Assembly: GCA_946478865.1 (NCBI GenBank)
Contig: CAMLDO010000016.1
Span: forward strand, 1 to 46,157
Origin: an uncultured Methylobacillus sp.
GTDB taxonomy: Bacteria > Pseudomonadota > Gammaproteobacteria > Burkholderiales > Methylophilaceae
DNA: 46,157 nucleotides
Direction of reading: 5' to 3'
The notes below the pieces were generated by a model, which was not told the origin of the DNA, did no database searches, and saw only the letters and a program-made list of their open reading frames with translations. Both the position numbers and the translations under genes were made by a program. Of the stretch, positions 2,281 through 40,818 are shown piece by piece. How positions within the stretch are numbered: position 1 is the first letter of the stretch; every line of letters begins with the position of its first letter.

Positions 2281-3819
2281 TCACGCAGTAGCCCGGCGCA
2301 TGAAGTCGCGCGGGCGGATGCCCAGCAGCCACAGCACCGCAAAATAGGTCAAAGCCCCGCCGCTCACCAATAGCGTGAGACGCACGATCTTCTCGGCAAA
2401 GCCGTAATGCAGCCACGCAGACTGCGCGCCCATGCCGAACCACAGCACCGCCGCCATCGCGCCAGCCGCCAGCAGCAGTTTGAACACGAACAGCAGCCAG
2501 CCAGGCTGCGGCCGGAAAATATCGTCGCGGCGCAGATGGTAATACAGCAAGCCGGCATTGATGCAGGCACCCAGCGAGATTGCCAGCGCCAGCCCGGCAT
2601 GCTTGAGCTGCCAGACGAACAATAGATTCATCACCTGCGTCGCAAGCAAGGTGAATACTGCAATCTTGACCGGCGTCTTGATGTTCTGCCGCGCATAAAA
2701 GCCCGGCGCCAGCACCTTGATCAGGATCAGCCCGAGCAAGCCTACACTGTAAGCGACGAGCGCCTGTTGCGTCATCTGCAGGTCATGCGCATCGAACGCG
2801 CCGTACAGGAACAGCGCCGCCACCAGCGGCACCGCCAGCACCGCCAGCGCCACTGCGGCCGGCACCGCCAGCATGAAGGTCAGGCGCAGGCCCCAGTCCA
2901 GCAACTGCGAGTATTCGCCGTCTGCCTTGTCGGCATGGCTCTTGGAGAGGCTGGGCAGCAGGATGGTCCCCAGTGCGACCCCCAGTATGCCGGTCGGAAA
3001 CTCCATGAGGCGGTCAGCGTAGTACAGCCACGACACGCTGCCAGTGGCCAGAAAGGAAGCAAAGATGGTGTTGATCAGCAGACTCAACTGCGCGATCGAC
3101 ACACCAAATACCGCCGGCCCCATGAGCTTAAGGATGCGACGTACGCCCTCATCCTTGAAATTGAAGCGGATGCGCGGCAGGAAACCGATCTGCGCGAGAA
3201 ACGGCAGCTGGAACACCAGCTGCACGATGCCGCCGACGAACACGGCCCACGCCAGCACCTTGATCGGCGGATCGAAATACGGCGCGAAGAACAGCGCGGC
3301 GACGATGAATGCGATATTCAGCCACACCGGGCCGAAGGCCGGTATTGAGAACTTGTTATAGGTATTGAGCACGCCGCCGGCGAGCGACACCAGCGAAATG
3401 AAGAAGATATAAGGAAAGGTGATGCGCAGCAGCTCGACCGTGAGTGCGAACTTGTCCGGGCTGGCGGCAAAGCCCGGTGCGCTCACATAAACGATCCACG
3501 GCGCGGCCAGTATGCCGAGCACGGTCACCGCGATCAGCACGAGCGCCAGCAGGCTGGTGACATGATCTACCAGATCGCGCGTCGCTTCCGGCCCGCGCTG
3601 GTTCTTGTATTCGGCCAGCACCGGCACGAAGGCCTGCGAGAAAGCACCCTCCGCCGATAGCCGGCGCAACAGGTTGGGAATCTTGAAGGCGACGAAAAAC
3701 GCATCCGTCAGCACGCCGGCACCGAACACTCGCGCCACCAGCGTATCGCGCACGAAGCCCAGGATGCGGGACAGGAATGTCATGCTGCCGACGGTCGCCA
3801 GCGCTTTGAGCAGATTCAT
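2281..3819 (-). CDS. murJ: Lipid II flippase MurJ (MviN family)
   Basis: Integral inner-membrane protein that flips lipid II to the periplasmic face for peptidoglycan synthesis. The 512 residues contain about 14 hydrophobic segments, as the family expects. The N-terminus, with [19 protein letters not shown] at about residues 19-37, is a hallmark MurJ stretch with the conserved arginines of the central cavity. It is the first gene of the murJ-ribF-ileS group and is divergent from rpsT, the common betaproteobacterial arrangement. Confidence 0.97.
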
Positions 3820-3904: not shown

Positions 3905-3942
3905 TGCGCGTTTCAAATTTTGCACAACTTTCAGGAGTTTTC

Positions 3943-4212
3943 ATGGCTAACAGCGCACAAGCACGTAAGCGCGCCCGTCAGGCGGTCAAGCAACGCGCCC
4001 ACAATGCGAGCCTGCGCTCTGCCCTGCGCACCGCGATCAAGAAGGTCATCAAGGCCGTTGAAGCGGGCGACAAGGCTGCCGCGCAAGCCGCCTTCAACGA
4101 AAACGTCAGCGTGATCGACCGCATCGCCGACAAGAAGATCATTCACAAGAACAAGGCCGCTCGTCACAAGAGCCGCCTGTCCGCTGCCGTGAAGGCAATG
4201 GCTGCCGCTTAA
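3943..4212 (+). CDS. rpsT: 30S ribosomal protein S20
   Basis: Small, strongly basic primary 16S rRNA-binding protein of the 30S subunit. The start at 3943 gives an 89-residue protein beginning [13 protein letters not shown], the standard S20 N-terminus, with the AGG AG ribosome binding site at 3933-3937. A longer in-frame extension upstream (from 3904) is rejected because S20 proteins begin at this MAN. It is monocistronic: its own promoter lies upstream and a strong hairpin terminator lies 20 bases downstream. Confidence 0.98.
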
Positions 4213-4232
4213 TCGCGTGCTTCTTGTATCGT

Positions 4233-4262
4233 AAAAAAGCCAACCCGCGGGTTGGCTTTTTT
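4233..4262. terminator. Bidirectional rho-independent terminator after rpsT
   Basis: A perfect GC-rich inverted repeat (GCCAACCC / GGGTTGGC) is flanked by six A on the left and six T on the right, so it can terminate from both strands. It separates convergent rpsT and the EAL-HDOD gene. The minus-strand gene's TAA lies at 4263-4261, so its stop codon falls inside the A/T tract of the terminator. Confidence 0.9.
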
Positions 4263-5514
4263 ATTGCCGCTCCATCCCGGCTGCAGCCACCTCGTCCGCA
4301 ACAGCCCCTGCCCAAAGCATGGCCTCGCGCTGCGCTTCCATGAGGCGCGCCTCTCGAATACCGCAGGAAGTTGCCAGCACAGACAAGGCATTGAAATCGG
4401 CGGCTTCCAGCGCTTCGCAGATTCTCAGCAACTGCCCCAACACGCCGTTGCGCGTCAGAATCGCATCCCGAATCTCTTCATCGACACCTATCCTCGGCAG
4501 AACTTCATCGATGGGCGCATTCAGCAATACATCGACCAGCGACAGCACGCCCACCATGAACCCTTTTTCCTGACGAGAAGATCCCATTTGATGTGTCACG
4601 TCCTGCACCAGGGATTCGATGATGCGCCCGCGGCGAACCGCCAGCTCGAACAAAGCCAGGCTGCGTTCGCTGCCGCCCGAAATGAACAGCAACACCTGCA
4701 GCCAGTTCGCAAGCTTGCTTCTGCCGAACATATTGAGGAGTTCGCGCACCGAGCCGACTCTTCCGCGCATTCCAAAAGCGGCCGAATTGGCCAGCCACAA
4801 CAGATGCAGGGTCAACTCGGGGCTCAGTTTCAGCGCGCGCTCGATATCCTTGTCGCCCGCGTCGTTCTCGAACATGGCCAGCAGCACGAGAACCTTGGTC
4901 CTGCGCGGCTCCGGCGTTGCGTCTGCGGCTTCCCCCGGATGCGCAAAATAATGCCCCTGATACAAATCGAACCCCAAGGCCTTGCACTGCTCGAATGTCT
5001 GCGGCGAAGCAACGTTTTCTGCCAGCGTTTTTATGGCACGTCCCTCCAGCATTTGCATCGTTTCGGTCAGCTCTTCCCGAGAGAGTGCAGCGATATCCAG
5101 TTTCACGATATCGACCATGTCGAGAAGGTCGGCCATTCCAGTCCCGGAGACAAAATGGCCGAGCGCGAGGGTATATCCCATGCGGCGATACCCGGCACAC
5201 AAATCGCGGCAACTTTGGGAGAAATCCGGGAAATCCGTCAGTTCCAATAGCGTTTTATTGGCCGGCAGCATCGACACCATGCCGCTTTCGAGAAAAGCCG
5301 GATCGACTTGGACAAACACTTTCCGCTTGCCCAATCGCTCGACCGCCTCCGGATTCAGAAAGGCATTGACGGCGATGCGCTCCGTTACCACCGCCTCGTC
5401 TTCATTGCTCACGCTGGATTCGGCATTTTTGTAGCGTACGGAAAAAGCAAATATCCGCCCTTCCCGATCCAGAACAGGCTGGTAAGAAAATGGGCAATCA
5501 ACGGAGGGCAGCAT
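4261..5514 (-). CDS. Degenerate EAL domain / HDOD signalling protein (YuxH-type)
   Basis: The N-terminal part is EAL-like and the C-terminal part (from about residue 200) is an HDOD domain, the YuxH-type architecture. The EAL fold is recognisable from QPVLDREGR near the start, DIVKLD in the middle and YQGHYFAHP at its end. Catalytic signatures are missing: the ExLxR motif reads FAFSVRYKN and the DDFG metal site reads ALGHF. The protein is therefore probably not an active phosphodiesterase (inference). I chose the ATG at 5514 (417 residues) because homologues begin just before the QPxxDR block. A TTG at 5544 would add ten residues but lies inside a hairpin. No clear ribosome binding site is visible for either. 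A c-di-GMP-I riboswitch precedes the gene. Confidence 0.88.
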   Translation of the reverse strand: MLPSVDCPFSYQPVLDREGRIFAFSVRYKNAESSVSNEDEAVVTERIAVNAFLNPEAVERLGKRKVFVQVDPAFLESGMVSMLPANKTLLELTDFPDFSQSCRDLCAGYRRMGYTLALGHFVSGTGMADLLDMVDIVKLDIAALSREELTETMQMLEGRAIKTLAENVASPQTFEQCKALGFDLYQGHYFAHPGEAADATPEPRRTKVLVLLAMFENDAGDKDIERALKLSPELTLHLLWLANSAAFGMRGRVGSVRELLNMFGRSKLANWLQVLLFISGGSERSLALFELAVRRGRIIESLVQDVTHQMGSSRQEKGFMVGVLSLVDVLLNAPIDEVLPRIGVDEEIRDAILTRNGVLGQLLRICEALEAADFNALSVLATSCGIREARLMEAQREAMLWAGAVADEVAAAGMERQ

Positions 5515-5520
5515 CTTGTA

Positions 5521-5545
5521 TTTGTCTTTATAAATGAAAGACAAA
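5521..5545 (-). repeat. Perfect 9-bp hairpin between riboswitch and start codon
   Basis: TTTGTCTTT and AAAGACAAA form a perfect 9-bp stem with a 7-base loop, six bases before the ATG at 5514. It is AT-rich and has no following T-run, so it looks more like a translation-control hairpin than a terminator. It may be the expression platform of the riboswitch aptamer just upstream. Confidence 0.55.
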
Positions 5546-5570
5546 GGCAGACCGATGCGCCAGGAGAATT

Positions 5571-5647
5571 CGGCAACCCCGCTGCCCTATGACATGCGTC
5601 ACGTAGGCCGGAAGCTTTGCGCCCTCGCCTTTCGGTCGAGTTTGCCT
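5571..5647 (-). promoter_or_regulatory. Cyclic-di-GMP-I (GEMM-I) riboswitch aptamer
   Basis: Read on the minus strand, the leader shows the GEMM-I pattern in order. P1 5' strand GGCAAA lies at 5646-5641. A CTCG/CGAG stem (5640-5637 with 5627-5624) is capped by a CC-GAAA-GG GNRA tetraloop. The core GCAAAGC lies at 5620-5614 and CCGGCCTA at 5611-5604. A TGAC/GTCA hairpin spans 5601-5590. GGGCAGCGGGGTTGCC follows, whose GTTGCC (5577-5572) closes P1. This matches the known aptamer (Rfam family Cyclic di-GMP-I) in motif order and spacing. It lies about 57 bases upstream of the EAL-HDOD start codon. Whether the effect is transcriptional or translational cannot be told from the sequence. Confidence 0.9.
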
Positions 5648-5795
5648 TTGTCGTAAACCCTTTCCAGAGAAAAGGTCAGGAGAAAATACCTGTTATGGAT
5701 GAGCTATGCAACGCCGGTTCAGTACAAACCGACAAAAGAGATGAAAGCGGGAACGAACGGCGCGATTTTCCGAAAAACCGCGCCGTTGATAACCA

Positions 5796-15148: not shown

Positions 15149-16009
15149 ATGCCTGAAATCATCGAACTGCTGCAACGCGAACCCACACTCTTTATAACGG
15201 CCGCCACGCTGTTCGGTTTACTGGTAGGCAGTTTTCTCAATGTCGTGATCCATCGTCTGCCCAAGATGATGGAGCAGGAATGGCACCGCAATTGTGCGGA
15301 GCTGCGCGGCGAGGAAGCGGCCGAGGCGCCCCAGTACAATCTCGTCGCCCCCCGCTCCGCCTGTCCCTCCTGCGGCCATCGCATCAGCGCCTGGGAAAAT
15401 ATTCCGGTCGTCAGCTACCTTGCGCTGCGCGGGAAATGCGCGGGATGCAAAACCTCAATCAGCCCGCGCTATCCGCTGGTTGAAATCTTCGCGGGCACAC
15501 TGGCCGGCATCATTGCCTGGCACTTCGGATTCGGTGCAACAGCACTTGCCGCGATGCTGTTCACCTTCACCCTGATCGCGCTGACCTTCATTGATTTCGA
15601 CACCCATCTGCTGCCGGACGATCTCACATTGCCGCTGATGTGGCTGGGCCTGGTACTCAATATCAACGGGCTGTTTACCGATCTGCAATCGGCCGTGATC
15701 GGCGCCATAGCCGGCTACCTCGCACTCTGGTCGGTCTATTGGATATTCAAGCTGGTCACGGGCAAGGAAGGCATGGGTTATGGCGACTTCAAGCTGCTGG
15801 CGGCAATCGGCGCATGGTTCGGTTGGCAAATGCTGCCGGCGGTGATCCTGCTGTCCTCGCTGGTCGGCTCCATCATCGGCATCGGCCTGATCGTATTGGC
15901 AAAACACGGTCGCAATGTGCCGATTCCTTTCGGGCCTTATCTGGCGCTGGGCGGTATCGCCGCGCTGTTCTTCGGCCCGCAAATGGCCAACTTCTACCTG
16001 CCTGCGTGA
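15149..16009 (+). CDS. pilD: Type IV prepilin peptidase / N-methyltransferase
   Basis: Inner-membrane aspartyl protease that cleaves and N-methylates type IV prepilins and pseudopilins. The 286 residues show GSFLNVVIHRLP near the start, the two zinc-type pairs CPSC and CAGC at about 72-75 and 97-100, and the catalytic aspartates in FIDFDTHLLPDD and GMGYGDFKLL. Several membrane helices are evident. The start at 15149 (MPEIIELLQ) is chosen by homologue length; an ATG at 15113 is possible. It overlaps coaE by one base. The usual upstream pilB and pilC are absent, but it could process substrates for the two orphan secretion ATPases in this window. Confidence 0.95.
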   Translation: MPEIIELLQREPTLFITAATLFGLLVGSFLNVVIHRLPKMMEQEWHRNCAELRGEEAAEAPQYNLVAPRSACPSCGHRISAWENIPVVSYLALRGKCAGCKTSISPRYPLVEIFAGTLAGIIAWHFGFGATALAAMLFTFTLIALTFIDFDTHLLPDDLTLPLMWLGLVLNINGLFTDLQSAVIGAIAGYLALWSVYWIFKLVTGKEGMGYGDFKLLAAIGAWFGWQMLPAVILLSSLVGSIIGIGLIVLAKHGRNVPIPFGPYLALGGIAALFFGPQMANFYLPA

Positions 16010-21645: not shown

Positions 21646-24045
21646 ATGGCAACGACGCCGCACGCCATTCCCGCAACGCCCGGCATCAGCAGCCTGGCGG
21701 AAATCGGCAGCGAACTCGCGTTCACCAAGAAGCTGCAGGCGGTCAGCAACAAGATTCACGCGACGACCAACCTCGATCAAATCATCCTCGATGTCAGCCA
21801 TGACATCTGCCAGGTGTTCGAGGCGGAGCGCATTACGATCTACACGGTCAGCGAAGACCGGTGCATGCTGATTTCCAAGATCAAGACCGGCCTCAGCAGC
21901 TACAACGACGTACAGCGCCCGATCAGCCGCATGGCGATCGGCAAGCAAAGCGTCATCGGCTTTGTCGCGACCAACAAGACGCTGGTCAACATCGCAGACA
22001 TTTACGATACCGAGGAGCTGAAACGCATCAGCCCGGAAATCACCTTCCTCAAGAACGTCGACCAGCAGACCGGGTTCCGCACGCGCCAGATGCTGGCCTT
22101 CCCGATTCTCGACCCGGTCAACGCCGAAATCATCGGCGCCGTTCAGCTGACCAACACGCTCTCTGGCCTGCCTTTTTCACACATCGCCGAACACGGGGCC
22201 ATCGAGATCGCCAAAACGCTCGCGATCGCCTTCACGCAACGCCAGGCGGCTTCCAGCCAGATCAAGACCAAGTTCGATCAGCTCATTGCGGACGGCATCA
22301 TTTCCGCTGCCGAACTGGAACTCGCGCAACGCTCGGCGCGCAAGAAAAAAGCCAATATCGAAGACGTTCTTATCGACGAATTTCAGGTTAAGCCTGCCGA
22401 TATCGGACATGCCTTGTCAGTGTTTTTCGGTGTGCCCTACGAACCGCATCGCGCCGACCGTCTGCGCCCAATGAACCTGCTTAAAAATCTCAAGCACGAA
22501 TACATTCAGGCGAACGGCTGGCTGCCGGTTGATGAAACTCGGGAAGAAGGCCTGGTGATCATGACACCGGACCCGGAAAGCGTGCGCAGTTCGCGCATCG
22601 TCAACAATGTCTTCCCCAAGCACTCCAAGATCACCTACAAGGTCTGCCTGAACCGGGACTTCTGCAATACGACCAGCCTGTTCTATGAAATCGGCCTGCC
22701 CACCACCAATATCGACGAAATCATTTCGCACATGGGCGGGGAAGAAGAGGAGGAAAGCGACTTCACCGCGGAGGACATCTCCGCCGCCCAGGACAACGAA
22801 CTGGTCAAGCTGGTCAACAAGATCATCATCGACGCCTATACCCAGGGCGCATCGGATATTCACATCGAGCCTTATCCGGACAAGAGCAAGGTCGTGATTC
22901 GCCTGCGCCGCGACGGCAGCCTGACCCCCTATATCGAGATTCCGCCCGGCTATCGCAACGCGCTCGCCGCCCGCATCAAGATCATGGCGGAGCTGGATAT
23001 TTCCGAAAGGCGCGTGCCGCAGGACGGCAAGATCAAGTTCCGCAAGTTCGGCCCGCTCGATATCGAATTGCGGGTAGCCACGATCCCGACCGCGGGAGGA
23101 CTGGAAGATATCGTGCTGCGCATCCTCGCCTCCGGCAAGCCGATTTCGCTCGACAAGCTCGACCTCGCTCCGCGCACCTTCGAACACATCCAGCATATGG
23201 TCGCCAAGCCCTATGGACTGTTCCTGGTGGTCGGCCCGACCGGTTCCGGCAAAACTACCACCCTGCATTCGGCGATGAGCTACATCAACACGCCGGAAGC
23301 CAAGATCTGGACCGCCGAAGATCCGGTAGAAATCACCCAGCGCGGGCTGCGGCAGGTACAGGTGAACCGCAAGGCCGGCCTCAATTTCGCGACCATGATG
23401 CGCGCCTTTCTGCGCGCCGATCCGGACGTGATCATGGTGGGCGAAATGCGCGACAAGGAAACTGTCGCCCTGGGCATCGAGGCCTCGCTCACCGGCCACT
23501 TGGTCATGTCCACGCTACATACCAATAGCGCGCCCGAGACCGTGGTCCGTCTGCTCGACATGGGCATGGACCCGTTCAATTTCTCCGATGCGCTGCTGGG
23601 GATTCTGGCGCAACGGCTGGCCAAGCGATTATGCGTGTGCAAGCAGGCGTATACGCCTTCCTCAGAGGAGGTTGAAAGCCTCCTGACCGAGTACTGTCGC
23701 GAGTTGGAATCCACTTCTTCGTGGCAGTGCGATCCGCAGGCGGCACGCAAAAACATTCTGGACGAGTGGACCCAATCCTTCGGCGACAAGAATGGAAAAT
23801 TCACCCTGTACAAGGCCGTAGGATGCGACAAGTGTGCCGGCGGCTATCGCGGGCGGGTGGGCTTGTTCGAACTGCTGGAAGGCACGGACGCACTCAAGAA
23901 AGGCATCCAGGAACATTTGCGCGTCGCAGAGCTGCTGGCGATTGCCCTGGAAGAAGGCATGCGCACCCTCAAGCAGGACGGCATCGAGAAAGTACTGAAA
24001 GGCATCACCGACATGAAGCAGGTGCGTGCCGTTTGCATCAAGTAA
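21646..24045 (+). CDS. GAF-domain type II/IV secretion ATPase (PilB/GspE-like)
   Basis: A 799-residue protein. A GAF domain occupies about residues 25-205, ending in MLAFPILDPVNAEIIGAVQLTN, and a degenerate T2SSE_N/MshEN-like region about 210-330. The secretion ATPase follows: Asp box DIHIEP, Walker A GPTGSGKTT (about 530), Walker B DPDVIMVGEMRD and the His box TGHLVMSTLHTNSA. A zinc-type cysteine set brackets an insertion (CVCK and CDKC); the first pair is C-x-C rather than C-x-x-C. Such ATPases power pilus or pseudopilus assembly at the inner membrane. No pilC, pilM or pilin genes are adjacent. A GAF input suggests control by a small ligand or redox signal (inference). Confidence 0.9.
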   Translation: MATTPHAIPATPGISSLAEIGSELAFTKKLQAVSNKIHATTNLDQIILDVSHDICQVFEAERITIYTVSEDRCMLISKIKTGLSSYNDVQRPISRMAIGKQSVIGFVATNKTLVNIADIYDTEELKRISPEITFLKNVDQQTGFRTRQMLAFPILDPVNAEIIGAVQLTNTLSGLPFSHIAEHGAIEIAKTLAIAFTQRQAASSQIKTKFDQLIADGIISAAELELAQRSARKKKANIEDVLIDEFQVKPADIGHALSVFFGVPYEPHRADRLRPMNLLKNLKHEYIQANGWLPVDETREEGLVIMTPDPESVRSSRIVNNVFPKHSKITYKVCLNRDFCNTTSLFYEIGLPTTNIDEIISHMGGEEEEESDFTAEDISAAQDNELVKLVNKIIIDAYTQGASDIHIEPYPDKSKVVIRLRRDGSLTPYIEIPPGYRNALAARIKIMAELDISERRVPQDGKIKFRKFGPLDIELRVATIPTAGGLEDIVLRILASGKPISLDKLDLAPRTFEHIQHMVAKPYGLFLVVGPTGSGKTTTLHSAMSYINTPEAKIWTAEDPVEITQRGLRQVQVNRKAGLNFATMMRAFLRADPDVIMVGEMRDKETVALGIEASLTGHLVMSTLHTNSAPETVVRLLDMGMDPFNFSDALLGILAQRLAKRLCVCKQAYTPSSEEVESLLTEYCRELESTSSWQCDPQAARKNILDEWTQSFGDKNGKFTLYKAVGCDKCAGGYRGRVGLFELLEGTDALKKGIQEHLRVAELLAIALEEGMRTLKQDGIEKVLKGITDMKQVRAVCIK

Positions 24046-24592: not shown

Positions 24593-26218
24593 TTATGGCA
24601 CGTATCCGGGAATCTTGCTTTCATCGACTTCGTCAATCTGTTCCGGCTCCAGAAACTGCTGCGCGTATTCCAGATAGACCTTTTCACGGATAAAAAGATC
24701 GAAAAGATCGGGATCCACATGATGATCCAGTTTCATCTTGCCCAGGATGAACAGCGATTCGGACAACGTCTTGGCCTTCTTGTAGGGCCGGTCGCGTGCG
24801 GTCAGCGCCTCGAAAATATCGGCTATGCCCATGATGCGTGCGGGAATCGACATCTGCTCGCGCGTAAGGCCGCGCGGATAGCCCTTGCCGTCCATGCGCT
24901 CGTGGTGGCCGCCCGCATACTCCGGAACACGCTGCAGATCCTTGGGATAAGGCAGCGACTCCAGCATATTGATCGTCACCACGATGTGGTTGTTGATGAT
25001 CTCGCGCTCTTCCGCGGTCAGCGTGCCGCGCGCGATATTGAGATTGTAGACTTCGTTCTCGCTGAGGAAAGGGACGACCTGTCCGGCCGCGTCCAGCAAT
25101 GAATAAGTAGCGATGGCACGCACACGCTCCTGATGCTCCGGCGTCATGAACTCTCCGCCGATATTCGCGTTGCGCAGGAATTCGCGATCCCCGTCCAGTT
25201 GCCTCACGAGCGCCTGATGCTCGGCTTCGAGCGCAGCGCCTGCAGCGGTATCGCCTTGTTGCAGCGCCGTGATCTGGCGGCGCAGCATTTCGGTTTCCTT
25301 CTGCTTTTTCAACAGCTCGAAGCGCTGGTCGATGAGATGGATACGGTCAAAAATGGTCGAGAGCTTGGTCGCCTTGTCCACCACGTACTCGGGCGTCGTC
25401 ACCTTGCCGCAATCGTGCAGCCAGGAGGCGATCTTCATCTCGTACATTTCCTTGTCGTTCATGCGGAAGTCGCGCAACGGACCGTTGTCGGAGGCGTTCG
25501 CGGCTTTCGCCAGCAGCATGGAAAGTTCCGGCACGCGACGGCAATGGCCACCGGTATAAGGCGACTTCTCGTCGATGGCCTCGGCGATGAGCTCGATGAA
25601 GGATTCGAATAGCTGCTTGAGCCCTTCGATGAGGTTATGGTTGGTCAGCGCGACTGCGGCCTGGGAAGCGAGCGATTCGACCAGTTGCTGGTTCTCGACG
25701 GAAAATGCGGTGATTTCTCCGCTTTCCTCGTCACGTGCATTGAGCAGTTGCAGTACCCCGATAATCTCGTTCTCGTGGTTCTTCATCGGGATGGTGAGGA
25801 AGGACTTGGAACGATAGCCGGTCTTCTCGTCGAATTTGCGCGTACCCGAAAAGTCGAAGCCCTCCGCCGTGTAGGCATCCTGGATGTTGACCGTGCAGTC
25901 GTGCAGCACGGAATAGGCGGCGACCATATTGTTGTTCGGCGAGCCGTCCTCCGCATACAGCGGGAGCGGTGCGAATGGAATGTCTTTGCCGGTGGTGCCG
26001 CCCAAGGCGATACCGAGCGAATCGGTACGCATGATTTCGAAGCGCAGCTTGCGATCGTCGGTCACTGTATACAGCGTCCCGCCGTCGGAACCGGTAATTT
26101 CCTTGGCGCCGAGCAGAATCATTTCCAGCAGACGCGGCGCATCCCGCTCGGCGGAAAGCGCGATCCCGATGGCATTGAGACGCTCAAGACGCTTGAGCAG
26201 CTTTTTCAGTTGCGGCAT
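24593..26218 (-). CDS. GAF-HD-GYP c-di-GMP phosphodiesterase
   Basis: A 541-residue cytoplasmic signalling protein. The GAF domain spans about residues 15-205. An HD-GYP domain follows: HCRRVPELS, the HD pair in WLHDCGK, then after a helical insertion of about 100 residues HHERMDGKGYP and ADIFEALTARDRPYKKA. HD-GYP enzymes hydrolyse c-di-GMP to GMP; the HD and GYP residues needed for catalysis are present. Its GAF domain resembles that of the nearby secretion ATPase (both have an EKTGYR/QQTGFR-like block and IIGVLQLLN/IIGAVQLTN). It follows a tandem-FHA gene by 34 bases. Confidence 0.93.
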   Translation of the reverse strand: MPQLKKLLKRLERLNAIGIALSAERDAPRLLEMILLGAKEITGSDGGTLYTVTDDRKLRFEIMRTDSLGIALGGTTGKDIPFAPLPLYAEDGSPNNNMVAAYSVLHDCTVNIQDAYTAEGFDFSGTRKFDEKTGYRSKSFLTIPMKNHENEIIGVLQLLNARDEESGEITAFSVENQQLVESLASQAAVALTNHNLIEGLKQLFESFIELIAEAIDEKSPYTGGHCRRVPELSMLLAKAANASDNGPLRDFRMNDKEMYEMKIASWLHDCGKVTTPEYVVDKATKLSTIFDRIHLIDQRFELLKKQKETEMLRRQITALQQGDTAAGAALEAEHQALVRQLDGDREFLRNANIGGEFMTPEHQERVRAIATYSLLDAAGQVVPFLSENEVYNLNIARGTLTAEEREIINNHIVVTINMLESLPYPKDLQRVPEYAGGHHERMDGKGYPRGLTREQMSIPARIMGIADIFEALTARDRPYKKAKTLSESLFILGKMKLDHHVDPDLFDLFIREKVYLEYAQQFLEPEQIDEVDESKIPGYVP

Positions 26219-38415: not shown

Positions 38416-40818
38416 ATGCCTATGAACACGCTCGCCTCTCCGCCCATGCTCGACTGGCCTCTTCCTCCTTACGCCGTTCTCGAATCCGCATTGAGCGATG
38501 CCCAATGCTTTGTACAGCTACGCGACGGCAAAACCGTCCAGGGATTGCTCGGCAGCATGAATGTCGACATCGGCATGATGGAAGTGCATAACGCCAATGG
38601 CGGCATGAGCTCCAAGGGGATCAGCTTCGGCAACCTGAAGTGGATAGACCTCACGGAACTGGTGGCGCTAAAAAGCGGCGCTACCGTGGTGAACGAGAGC
38701 AACGGAATTTTCGCCGCGCCCGAATTGCGCGACATCGAGATCGAATTCACCGACGACGACAAGATGTCCGGCAAGACTTTCGGCATGCTGGAAACGGAGC
38801 GCGGCATCCACCTTTATCTGGAGCAGTCCGAAGGCCGCTACCTTCGCCGCTACATCCCGAGCGACGTGATCCGCCGCTACTCCACCGGCGAACCGCTGGG
38901 CAAGATGCTGGTCGAGGTCAAGGGCGTGGCGCCCGAAGTGATCGCCGAAGGTCTGGACCAGCAGAAGAAACTGCGTGATCGCCCGCTCGGCGAATACCTC
39001 AAGAGCGAGGAAGTCATCAGCGGCGAGCAGCTCGACCAGGTGCTGCAGCAGCTGCGCCACCAGCCGTCGCTCAAGCTCGGCGAAGCGCTCATGAAAGCCG
39101 GCATCGTCGAAGAATCGCAGATCCAGCAGGCGCTCGAGCAGCAAAAGCACAACCGCAAGCGCGCGCTGGGTGAAATCCTCATCGAGATGGGTATCGTTGA
39201 CCGAGCCACGGTCAACCAGTTGCTCGCGCGCAAGATGGGCATTCCCTACATCAAGCTCGCCCAATTCAGCATCGATCCCAACGTGGTCAAGATGGTGCCG
39301 GAAAAGGTCGCGTCGAAATACACGCTGATGCCGCTGTGCGTGGTTGACCAGCGCATCTTCGTGGCAATGGAAAACCCGCTCATGAACGAAGCGCTCAACG
39401 AAGTGCGCTTCCATGCCAAGAAAACCGCCGAGCCGGTCATGGCCTCGGCTGATGAAATCCACACCGCCATCCGCAGCTTCTACGGCACGGCGCATTTCGA
39501 CGATCTGGCGTCGGAGCTGGCGGTCGCCCTCGACGGCGGCGAAGACGCGCCGGAAACCAGCGAACTCACGGAAAACGACACCATCCTCACGCGGATGCTC
39601 AACAAGACCATCCTGGATGCGCACCAGCAAGGGGCTTCGGATATCCACATCGAAACCTATCCCGGCAAGAAGCACAGCGTGATCCGTTTCCGCAAGGACG
39701 GTCACATGGTGCACTACTTCGACCTGCCGGCCAATTTCCGCAACGCCATCGTCTCGCGCATCAAGATCATGGCCAACCTGGACATCTCCGAGAAGCGCCG
39801 CGCGCAGGACGGCAAGATCGACTTCTCGCAGTTCGGTCCCGCACGCATCGAGTTGCGCGTGGCGACCATTCCGACCATCAACGGCCTGGAAGACGTGGTG
39901 TTGCGTATCCTCAATGCCGGCAAGCCGATTCCGCTCGACAAGATCCTGCTCAGCGAATACAACCTGGGCCAGCTCAAGACCATTTCACAGCGCCCGCACG
40001 GCATGCTGCTGGTGTGCGGCCCGACCGGCTCGGGCAAGACCACCACGCTGCACTCGGTCATGAGCTACATCAACACCCCTGAGCGCAAGATCTGGACGGC
40101 GGAAGACCCGGTGGAAATCACCCAGGAAGGCCTGCGGCAAGTGCAGGTGCACCCCAAGATCGGCTGGACGTTCGCGTCCGCACTGCGCGCCTTCCTACGC
40201 GCCGACCCGGATGTAATCATGGTGGGCGAAATGCGCGACCAGGAAACTTCGCAGATCGGCGTGGAAGCCTCGCTGACCGGCCACCTTGTGCTGTCCACGC
40301 TGCACACCAACAGCGCGGCCGAATCCGTGGTGCGCCTGCTCGACCTCGGGCTTGATCCGTTCAACTTCTCCGATGCACTGCTGGGCGTGCTGGGCCAGCG
40401 TCTTGCGCGCGCACTCTGCCCATCATGCAAGAAGCCGCATGCGGCCAAGGATGATGAAATCGAAGCGCTGGTCCGGGAATACTGCGAGAGCTTCGAGAAT
40501 GTGGGGCACCCTGTTCCCGCGAAGGACACACTGCTGGAAGACTGGAAGCGCCGTTTCGGCGATGCAAACGGCAAGTTGACGCTGTATACCGCTGCAGGCT
40601 GCAAGGAGTGCGACAAGAGCGGCTACAAGGGACGTATTGGCGTTCATGAGCTGCTGGTGAGCAACCCCAAGACCAAGCGCCTGATCCAGACGCGTGCCAG
40701 CGTCACCGAGATTCAGGCGGCGGCATTCGAAAGCGGCATGCGCACGCTGAAGCAGGACGGCATCGAGAAGGTGCTGCAAGGACTGACCGACATCCAGATG
40801 ATCCGGGCCGCCTGCTAG
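38416..40818 (+). CDS. Type II/IV secretion ATPase with MshEN-type N-terminal motifs
   Basis: An 800-residue PilB/GspE-like ATPase. Residues 1-160 form a domain I do not recognise, with beta-rich stretches such as CFVQLRDGKTVQGLLGS. About 190-320 holds two MshEN-like c-di-GMP-binding repeats: LKLGEALMKAGIVEESQIQQ and ALGEILIEMGIVDRATVNQ, matching the (R)LG-x-x-L-x-x-x-G pattern. The ATPase core follows: DIHIET, Walker A GPTGSGKTT (about 534), DPDVIMVGEMRD, TGHLVLSTLHTNSA, and zinc cysteines CPSC and CKEC around an insertion. The ATPase half is very similar to the GAF-ATPase at 21646, insertion included, so the two are paralogues. No other pilus or secretion genes flank it. Confidence 0.9.
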   Translation: MPMNTLASPPMLDWPLPPYAVLESALSDAQCFVQLRDGKTVQGLLGSMNVDIGMMEVHNANGGMSSKGISFGNLKWIDLTELVALKSGATVVNESNGIFAAPELRDIEIEFTDDDKMSGKTFGMLETERGIHLYLEQSEGRYLRRYIPSDVIRRYSTGEPLGKMLVEVKGVAPEVIAEGLDQQKKLRDRPLGEYLKSEEVISGEQLDQVLQQLRHQPSLKLGEALMKAGIVEESQIQQALEQQKHNRKRALGEILIEMGIVDRATVNQLLARKMGIPYIKLAQFSIDPNVVKMVPEKVASKYTLMPLCVVDQRIFVAMENPLMNEALNEVRFHAKKTAEPVMASADEIHTAIRSFYGTAHFDDLASELAVALDGGEDAPETSELTENDTILTRMLNKTILDAHQQGASDIHIETYPGKKHSVIRFRKDGHMVHYFDLPANFRNAIVSRIKIMANLDISEKRRAQDGKIDFSQFGPARIELRVATIPTINGLEDVVLRILNAGKPIPLDKILLSEYNLGQLKTISQRPHGMLLVCGPTGSGKTTTLHSVMSYINTPERKIWTAEDPVEITQEGLRQVQVHPKIGWTFASALRAFLRADPDVIMVGEMRDQETSQIGVEASLTGHLVLSTLHTNSAAESVVRLLDLGLDPFNFSDALLGVLGQRLARALCPSCKKPHAAKDDEIEALVREYCESFENVGHPVPAKDTLLEDWKRRFGDANGKLTLYTAAGCKECDKSGYKGRIGVHELLVSNPKTKRLIQTRASVTEIQAAAFESGMRTLKQDGIEKVLQGLTDIQMIRAAC

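Follow-up and report, generated by a model that had tools for sequence, protein, structure and literature searches.

The window, i.e. the whole stretch of 46,157 nucleotides (nt) from an uncultured Methylobacillus sp. that was analysed, contains on its minus strand a gene for a protein with an EAL and an HDOD domain. The leader of this gene carries an aptamer that by score is a member of the c-di-GMP-I class of riboswitches, whose ligand is cyclic di-GMP (c-di-GMP). The gene and its leader are made up of the following parts:

5569..5656, minus strand: c-di-GMP-I (GEMM-I) riboswitch aptamer, from the RF01051 match and model R1.
4261..5514, minus strand: EAL-HDOD gene with an ATG start, 417 amino acids (aa), with Pfam matches to EAL and HDOD and the ATG aligned with homologs.
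4921..5514, minus strand: degenerate EAL domain, residues 1-198, from the fold model, with 5/10 catalytic-type positions kept.
4540..4866, minus strand: HDOD domain (Pfam PF08668, 26.0 bits), residues 217-325.

The aptamer was identified by scanning the window against all of Rfam 15 with cmscan. RF01051 matches with 79.7 bits (E 3.5e-14; gathering score 35) and is covered end to end, 1-87 of 87; apart from it, the window matched only two tRNAs. A sequence-only reading had proposed a GEMM-I aptamer here, and the below-threshold Infernal score that it had to fear did not occur. Model R1, for which we used 34 aptamers, those of the window and of its ortholog L149 among them, gives 79.2 bits. The same-strand EAL-HDOD gene has its ATG at 5514, 54 nt past the 3' end of the aptamer. 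The ligand contacts of Vc2, G20, A47 and C92 (PMC4744006; here and below, papers given by PMC number are cited from parts of their text), fall in our own mapping on G11, A39 and C84 of the aptamer, all three of which are present. The sequence-only reading also had the parts in their correct order, a GAAA-capped stem, the GCAAAGC core, a second hairpin and GGTTGCC. Its span, 5514-5647, does contain aptamer; however, it missed the first 9 nt, and on the 3' side it extends to the start codon. The P1 stem that it included is doubtful, as by eye there is no convincing terminal P1 and the 5' strand is complementary to a strand farther downstream instead.

In the Pfam scan the protein obtains 37.4 bits for EAL (cut-off 31.3) and 26.0 for HDOD (cut-off 22.9), and no GGDEF domain. 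The predicted structure shows an EAL fold, with a predicted local distance difference test score of 85.2 and a predicted template modelling score of 0.87. An alternative TTG start at 5544 would lengthen the protein to 427 aa. The ten catalytic-type positions, whose roles we take to be those assigned in work on RocR, read QENEDDKEEQ in most of the family and QSQEGHKEAQ in the window. Five residues have been lost, namely the Glu of ExL, the Asn, the Asp pair and the second Glu, and the set expected of an active EAL phosphodiesterase (Glu of ExL, Asn, DD and others) is not found; the alignment thus bears out the earlier remark that the ExL and DD residues needed for hydrolysis are missing. By eye, the alignment (A4) also shows R27 for L27 and K29 for R29. 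A4 contains 33 of the 39 proteins, with P0001 (98% the same), P0005, P0022, P0023 (partial cover), P0030 (extra domains) and P0039 (no HDOD) omitted. By analogy with FimX and LapD we infer, with less support, that active EAL-HDOD enzymes gave rise to a protein without phosphodiesterase activity, which would serve as a signalling adaptor or as a receptor for c-di-GMP.

The same pairing of riboswitch and degenerate EAL-HDOD gene was found again in an ortholog. With profile A1 at E 1e-108, one of the 187 genomes in the family of genome G834 has a match, G834 itself (gene L149, 596 bits), and the two proteins are about 49% identical. The L149 aptamer is of class c-di-GMP-I (81.9 bits, L149:1377-1463) and ends 37 nt before the ATG at 1501. 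Its EAL domain is also degenerate, with 4/10 catalytic-type positions missing; HDOD passes the Pfam cut-off (35.2) and EAL fails it (24.6 vs 31.3). None of the tested neighbour genes of the window lies within 19 kilobases (kb) of L149. Two other EAL-HDOD genes of G834 have no aptamer, and these keep 10/10 (L150) and 9/10 (L151) of the positions, providing a natural control inside one genome.

Among 114 other EAL-HDOD loci (80 + 34) the R1 scan found no aptamer, though it recovered those of the window and L149; the 114 include duplicates reached by two routes (e.g. L001 and L141), and some have little upstream DNA (L053 none, L009 236 nt). All 113 readable aptamer-free loci keep the ExL Glu. 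In three other families (117, 158 and 22 genomes) A1 at E 1e-108 gave 0, 2 and 1 matches, of 367-376 bits, far under the 596 bits of L149. An order-wide search (399 genomes, E 1e-50), in which at most four candidates per genome were scored, matched in 170 genomes, with 369 bits as the best. The best identity in the genome contig search is 37%, taken over the best 80 of 506 confirmed matches, so closer relatives are not shown to be absent. Viral contigs gave two distant protein matches (28-29% identity) and no match to the aptamer pattern. Matches in 115 plasmid records are all below 60% identity, the best among the matches listed being 27.9%.

The 21 degenerate rows form a single group with support 100/100, present in 100% of 200 bootstrap trees, in a tree of 74 rows for which a subset of the genome loci was picked by hand and L070 was left out. 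By this tree the degenerate clade has one origin. At its base is a polytomy of three: P0019, the pair of P0020 and L149, and a set of 18 rows with the window among them, i.e. the window and L149 are on different basal branches. If both known aptamers were inherited, the aptamer would be about as old as the clade; this estimate rests on two leaders, and independent gain is possible.

Within the leader, four elements could take part in switching:

5643..5652, minus strand: P strand GACAAAGGCA, the conserved 5' strand of the aptamer, which can pair with the T strand in 10 contiguous Watson-Crick pairs.
5540..5549, minus strand: T (switching) strand TGCCTTTGTC in the linker, complementary to GACAAAGGCA.
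5521..5545, minus strand: hairpin TTTGTCTTT-CATTTAT-AAAGACAAA, 9 pairs.
5581..5588, minus strand: AGGGCAGC in the 3' half of the aptamer, complementary to 5505-5512 (codons 1-4), a competing pairing.

The 3' arm of the hairpin, AAAGACAAA, is located 7-15 nt upstream of the ATG, in the ribosome-binding region, and the 5' arm overlaps the T strand. In dinucleotide shuffles of the linker, the P-T pairing was equalled in 5/5000, the hairpin in 6/5000 and both jointly in 0/5000, in tests selected after the repeats had been seen. The linkers of the window and L149 have an 11-nt block in common, CCTTTGTCTTT (4/3000 shuffles as long). The L149 equivalent of the P-T pairing is CCTTTGTCT with AGACAAAGG, for which 21/5000 shuffles do as well, and the L149 T strand faces the AAAGG directly ahead of the ATG. 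Among 73 aptamers, pairing of the aptamer 5' strand reaches p 0.05 in 14 and p 0.01 in eight (mononucleotide shuffles). It is commoner than chance and not universal, and the window ranks second. The longest such pairing, 15 pairs with a partner starting 65 nt downstream, is at L187:3747-3832 (minus strand) of G834 and precedes a 107-aa open reading frame (ORF) without a Pfam match.

Folding with forced states up to the start codon favours the T pairing by 9-11 kcal/mol in the window and by 5.5-6.1 in L149. At 25 nt or more past the start codon, this advantage falls to about 2 and about 0. The accessibility of positions -13 to +3 in the T-paired versus the aptamer state is 0.67-0.72 vs 0.25-0.26 in the window and 0.50-0.62 vs 0.39 in L149. 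In these folding models this suggests that the switch is decided while the leader is transcribed, open without ligand and closed with it.

We lean slightly towards a reading in which a single, non-catalytic EAL-HDOD protein is under translational control by the riboswitch, through two exclusive leader folds and with the ligand turning synthesis OFF. When c-di-GMP is present, the aptamer would be held together and the T strand would pair with the strand beside the ATG, closing the ribosome site. When it is absent, the T strand would pair with the aptamer 5' strand and thereby with the G that our mapping identifies as a ligand contact; the aptamer would open and the ribosome site would be free. 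The protein would then be made at low c-di-GMP. We consider the OFF direction, which comes from modelled folds, only somewhat better than even, because equilibrium folding of the whole leader hardly separates the states.

Several results weigh against this OFF switch. In the unconstrained 182-nt leader the ribosome region is unpaired to 0.24 with and 0.20 without a forced aptamer; in L149 the two values are equal (0.38 vs 0.38, with the start codon placed off by one), and at full length its two states agree within 0.5 kcal/mol. For the full-length leader of the window, the lowest state is neither the T pairing (-57.7) nor the aptamer (-55.6) but a third one (-61.4), in which AGGGCAGC is paired with codons 1-4; this is the lowest-energy fold of the 182-nt leader. 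The L149 hairpin is weak, with four contiguous pairs and 1789/5000 shuffles as good. By eye the window has no strong Shine-Dalgarno sequence, and a consensus scan found no promoter. Finally, the aptamer strand is identical in the two leaders, so covariation cannot be counted, and the folding model excludes tertiary contacts and the ligand energy.

The alternative that survives best concerns the protein. It might be a scaffold that acts through its HDOD domain and has lost c-di-GMP altogether, with the riboswitch as its sole c-di-GMP link, a possibility we take seriously but would put below an even chance. Many positions are altered, the changes at 27 and 29 among them; however, 20-21 of the 21 clade rows retain Q12, K138, E166 and Q186, and three of these four residues match, in our own mapping, the FimX ligand contacts Q463, E653 and Q673 (PMC7288161). 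An ON switch is rather unlikely. Here AGGGCAGC would pair with codons 1-4 and block the start when ligand is absent, and the ligand-held aptamer would free the start codon. The 8-nt perfect complement exists and is part of the lowest-energy full-length fold, but the hairpin over the ribosome site is present in both states of that fold, and the pairing is not among the inverted repeats of L149, whereas the T pairing is. Control at transcription, by Rho or early termination, is more improbable still: many c-di-GMP-I switches do act on termination, including Cd1 and pilM (PMC9262584), but the hairpin ahead of the start codon has a low G+C content and lacks a T run, and a terminator scan of the leader found no site. 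Retained phosphodiesterase activity of the EAL domain, with the riboswitch providing plain enzyme feedback, is scarcely credible, since, although EAL-HDOD proteins such as ZpdA of Vibrio cholerae can be active (PMC12607878), five of the ten catalytic-type positions are missing in the window and four in L149, while the wider family keeps them.

Two palindromes flank the gene and its leader:

5756..5787, minus strand: palindrome 3' of purK, possible purK terminator, 14-nt arms, 93%.
4232..4263, no strand assigned: perfect palindrome in the gap that separates rpsT from the EAL-HDOD gene, possible terminator in both directions, 16-nt arms, 100%.

With these on either side the EAL-HDOD gene looks like a one-gene unit; a simple terminator scan flagged neither. 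The window genes ribF-murJ-rpsT-purK-purE-proB-obgE-rplU-ispB are collinear with L153 (genome G092) and L154 (G045) at 64-92% identity, and in both the EAL-HDOD gene is absent between rpsT and purK. In L154 (6950-8396) two unrelated ORFs of 293 and 198 aa occupy this gap, i.e. it has accepted different genes in other genomes. G092 is in the same family as G834, which contains many genomes of 0.8-1.4 Mb. Hexulose-phosphate synthase of the ribulose monophosphate pathway is present in G092, G834, G045, G136 and G383 and not in G013 and G008, by a model that is not exclusive (2/14 control genomes above the cut-off). These matches point to a Methylophilaceae-like methylotroph as the likely source of the window.

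Elsewhere in the window, 24593-26218 (minus strand) is a second c-di-GMP-related gene, coding for a GAF-HD_5 protein (HD-GYP type) of 541 aa. Two T2SSE-type ATPases of about 800 aa each are found at 38416-40818 and 21646-24045 (both plus strand). The former has an MshEN domain (71.2 bits), a known c-di-GMP binder, and the latter has GAF and an MshEN match slightly below the cut-off (21.7 vs 23.1).

Apart from the window and L149, no EAL-HDOD gene is directly behind any of the other 71 aptamers, as judged from flanking DNA of about 1.5-3.5 kb (less at a few loci). At L121 an ORF of 138 aa that matches the C-terminal HDOD part lies 878 nt downstream of the aptamer with another reading frame intervening, and no EAL part was found near it. 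Weak matches to HDOD alone, of about 23 bits, occur upstream of the aptamer on the opposite strand at L174-L177, L179 and L180. In the family of G834 the aptamer is present in 39 of the 187 genomes, and G834 alone has 13. Taking the first plausible ORF, its aptamers other than that of L149 precede genes for an HD-GYP-like protein, a subtilase, an RTX protein, a beta-helix protein, a BTAD protein, a flavoprotein, a chemotaxis receptor, MotA, a protoglobin-kinase and a GspH-like pilin; the gene nearest to two of these 12 aptamers has no family match. In L197:1011-6831, also from G834, an aptamer at 3907-4013 (minus strand) precedes a short ORF (2925-3176) that by eye resembles a MotA start; behind it lie genes of filamentous-phage type, for a single-strand DNA binding protein and a replication protein. 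L193 contains another aptamer with a riboswitch-MotA gene. A genome named as Gallionellaceae has two class-I aptamers 1.5 kb apart, L143:13873-13973 and 15472-15559, one of which matches the GGC variant RF03167.

Compared with known systems, the window aptamer resembles RF01051 members (Vc2, Vc1, Cd1) in sequence and structure across the full model. It differs in that the gene downstream codes for a pseudo-EAL-HDOD protein and that the aptamer 5' strand would itself be the switching partner. It has a G at the mapped Vc2 G20 position, where the GEMM-Ib (3',3'-cyclic GMP-AMP, cGAMP) riboswitches of Geobacter, of the same clan and overall shape, presumably have an A. The cGAMP selectivity of GEMM-Ib is described in PMC6456294 without naming the residue. 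In the P, A, T, H scheme, the aptamer and the T-H stem of the OFF switch Cd1 can coexist (PMC9262584); the OFF state proposed for the window would follow the same logic, but its T strand competes for P. The protein resembles ZpdA and CdgJ in domain order, length and Pfam matches to EAL and HDOD; unlike ZpdA, an active phosphodiesterase, it belongs to a clade without the catalytic residues. FimX and LapD are degenerate EAL receptors derived from EAL enzymes. Like them, the window protein has a predicted EAL fold and has lost the catalytic residues, but it has HDOD instead of GGDEF and a riboswitch upstream. It may belong to their functional class.

The riboswitch class is known; its target appears to be a lineage-specific pseudo-phosphodiesterase not previously met in the searches made. 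In the literature on EAL-HDOD, GEMM, degenerate EAL and Methylophilaceae riboswitches, covered as the titles and abstract starts listed, with most subscription papers outside the scope, a c-di-GMP riboswitch on a degenerate EAL-HDOD gene is not described; where c-di-GMP riboswitch, EAL and HDOD are joined there, the riboswitch is used as a reporter. An RNA sensor controlling a pseudo-enzyme is the level supported by the sequence, and the RNA sensor feeding a protein sensor, as first proposed, is one reading of it. One messenger can be sensed in two known ways, by degenerate EAL receptors and by c-di-GMP riboswitches. Here both would be stacked on one gene, in one lineage where the enzyme family lost catalysis. 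This would be a case for how a pseudo-enzyme is kept, placed under control of the molecule that its ancestors degraded. It is a tentative proposal, on the doubtful side, that the pseudo-EAL-HDOD protein still binds c-di-GMP and that the aptamer was gained and catalysis lost together at the clade base. If so, every member of the clade (the metagenomic orthologs P0002-P0021) would be expected to carry the riboswitch, and one messenger would hit the same output twice, the RNA setting the amount of receptor (at low c-di-GMP only) and the protein sensing the remainder.
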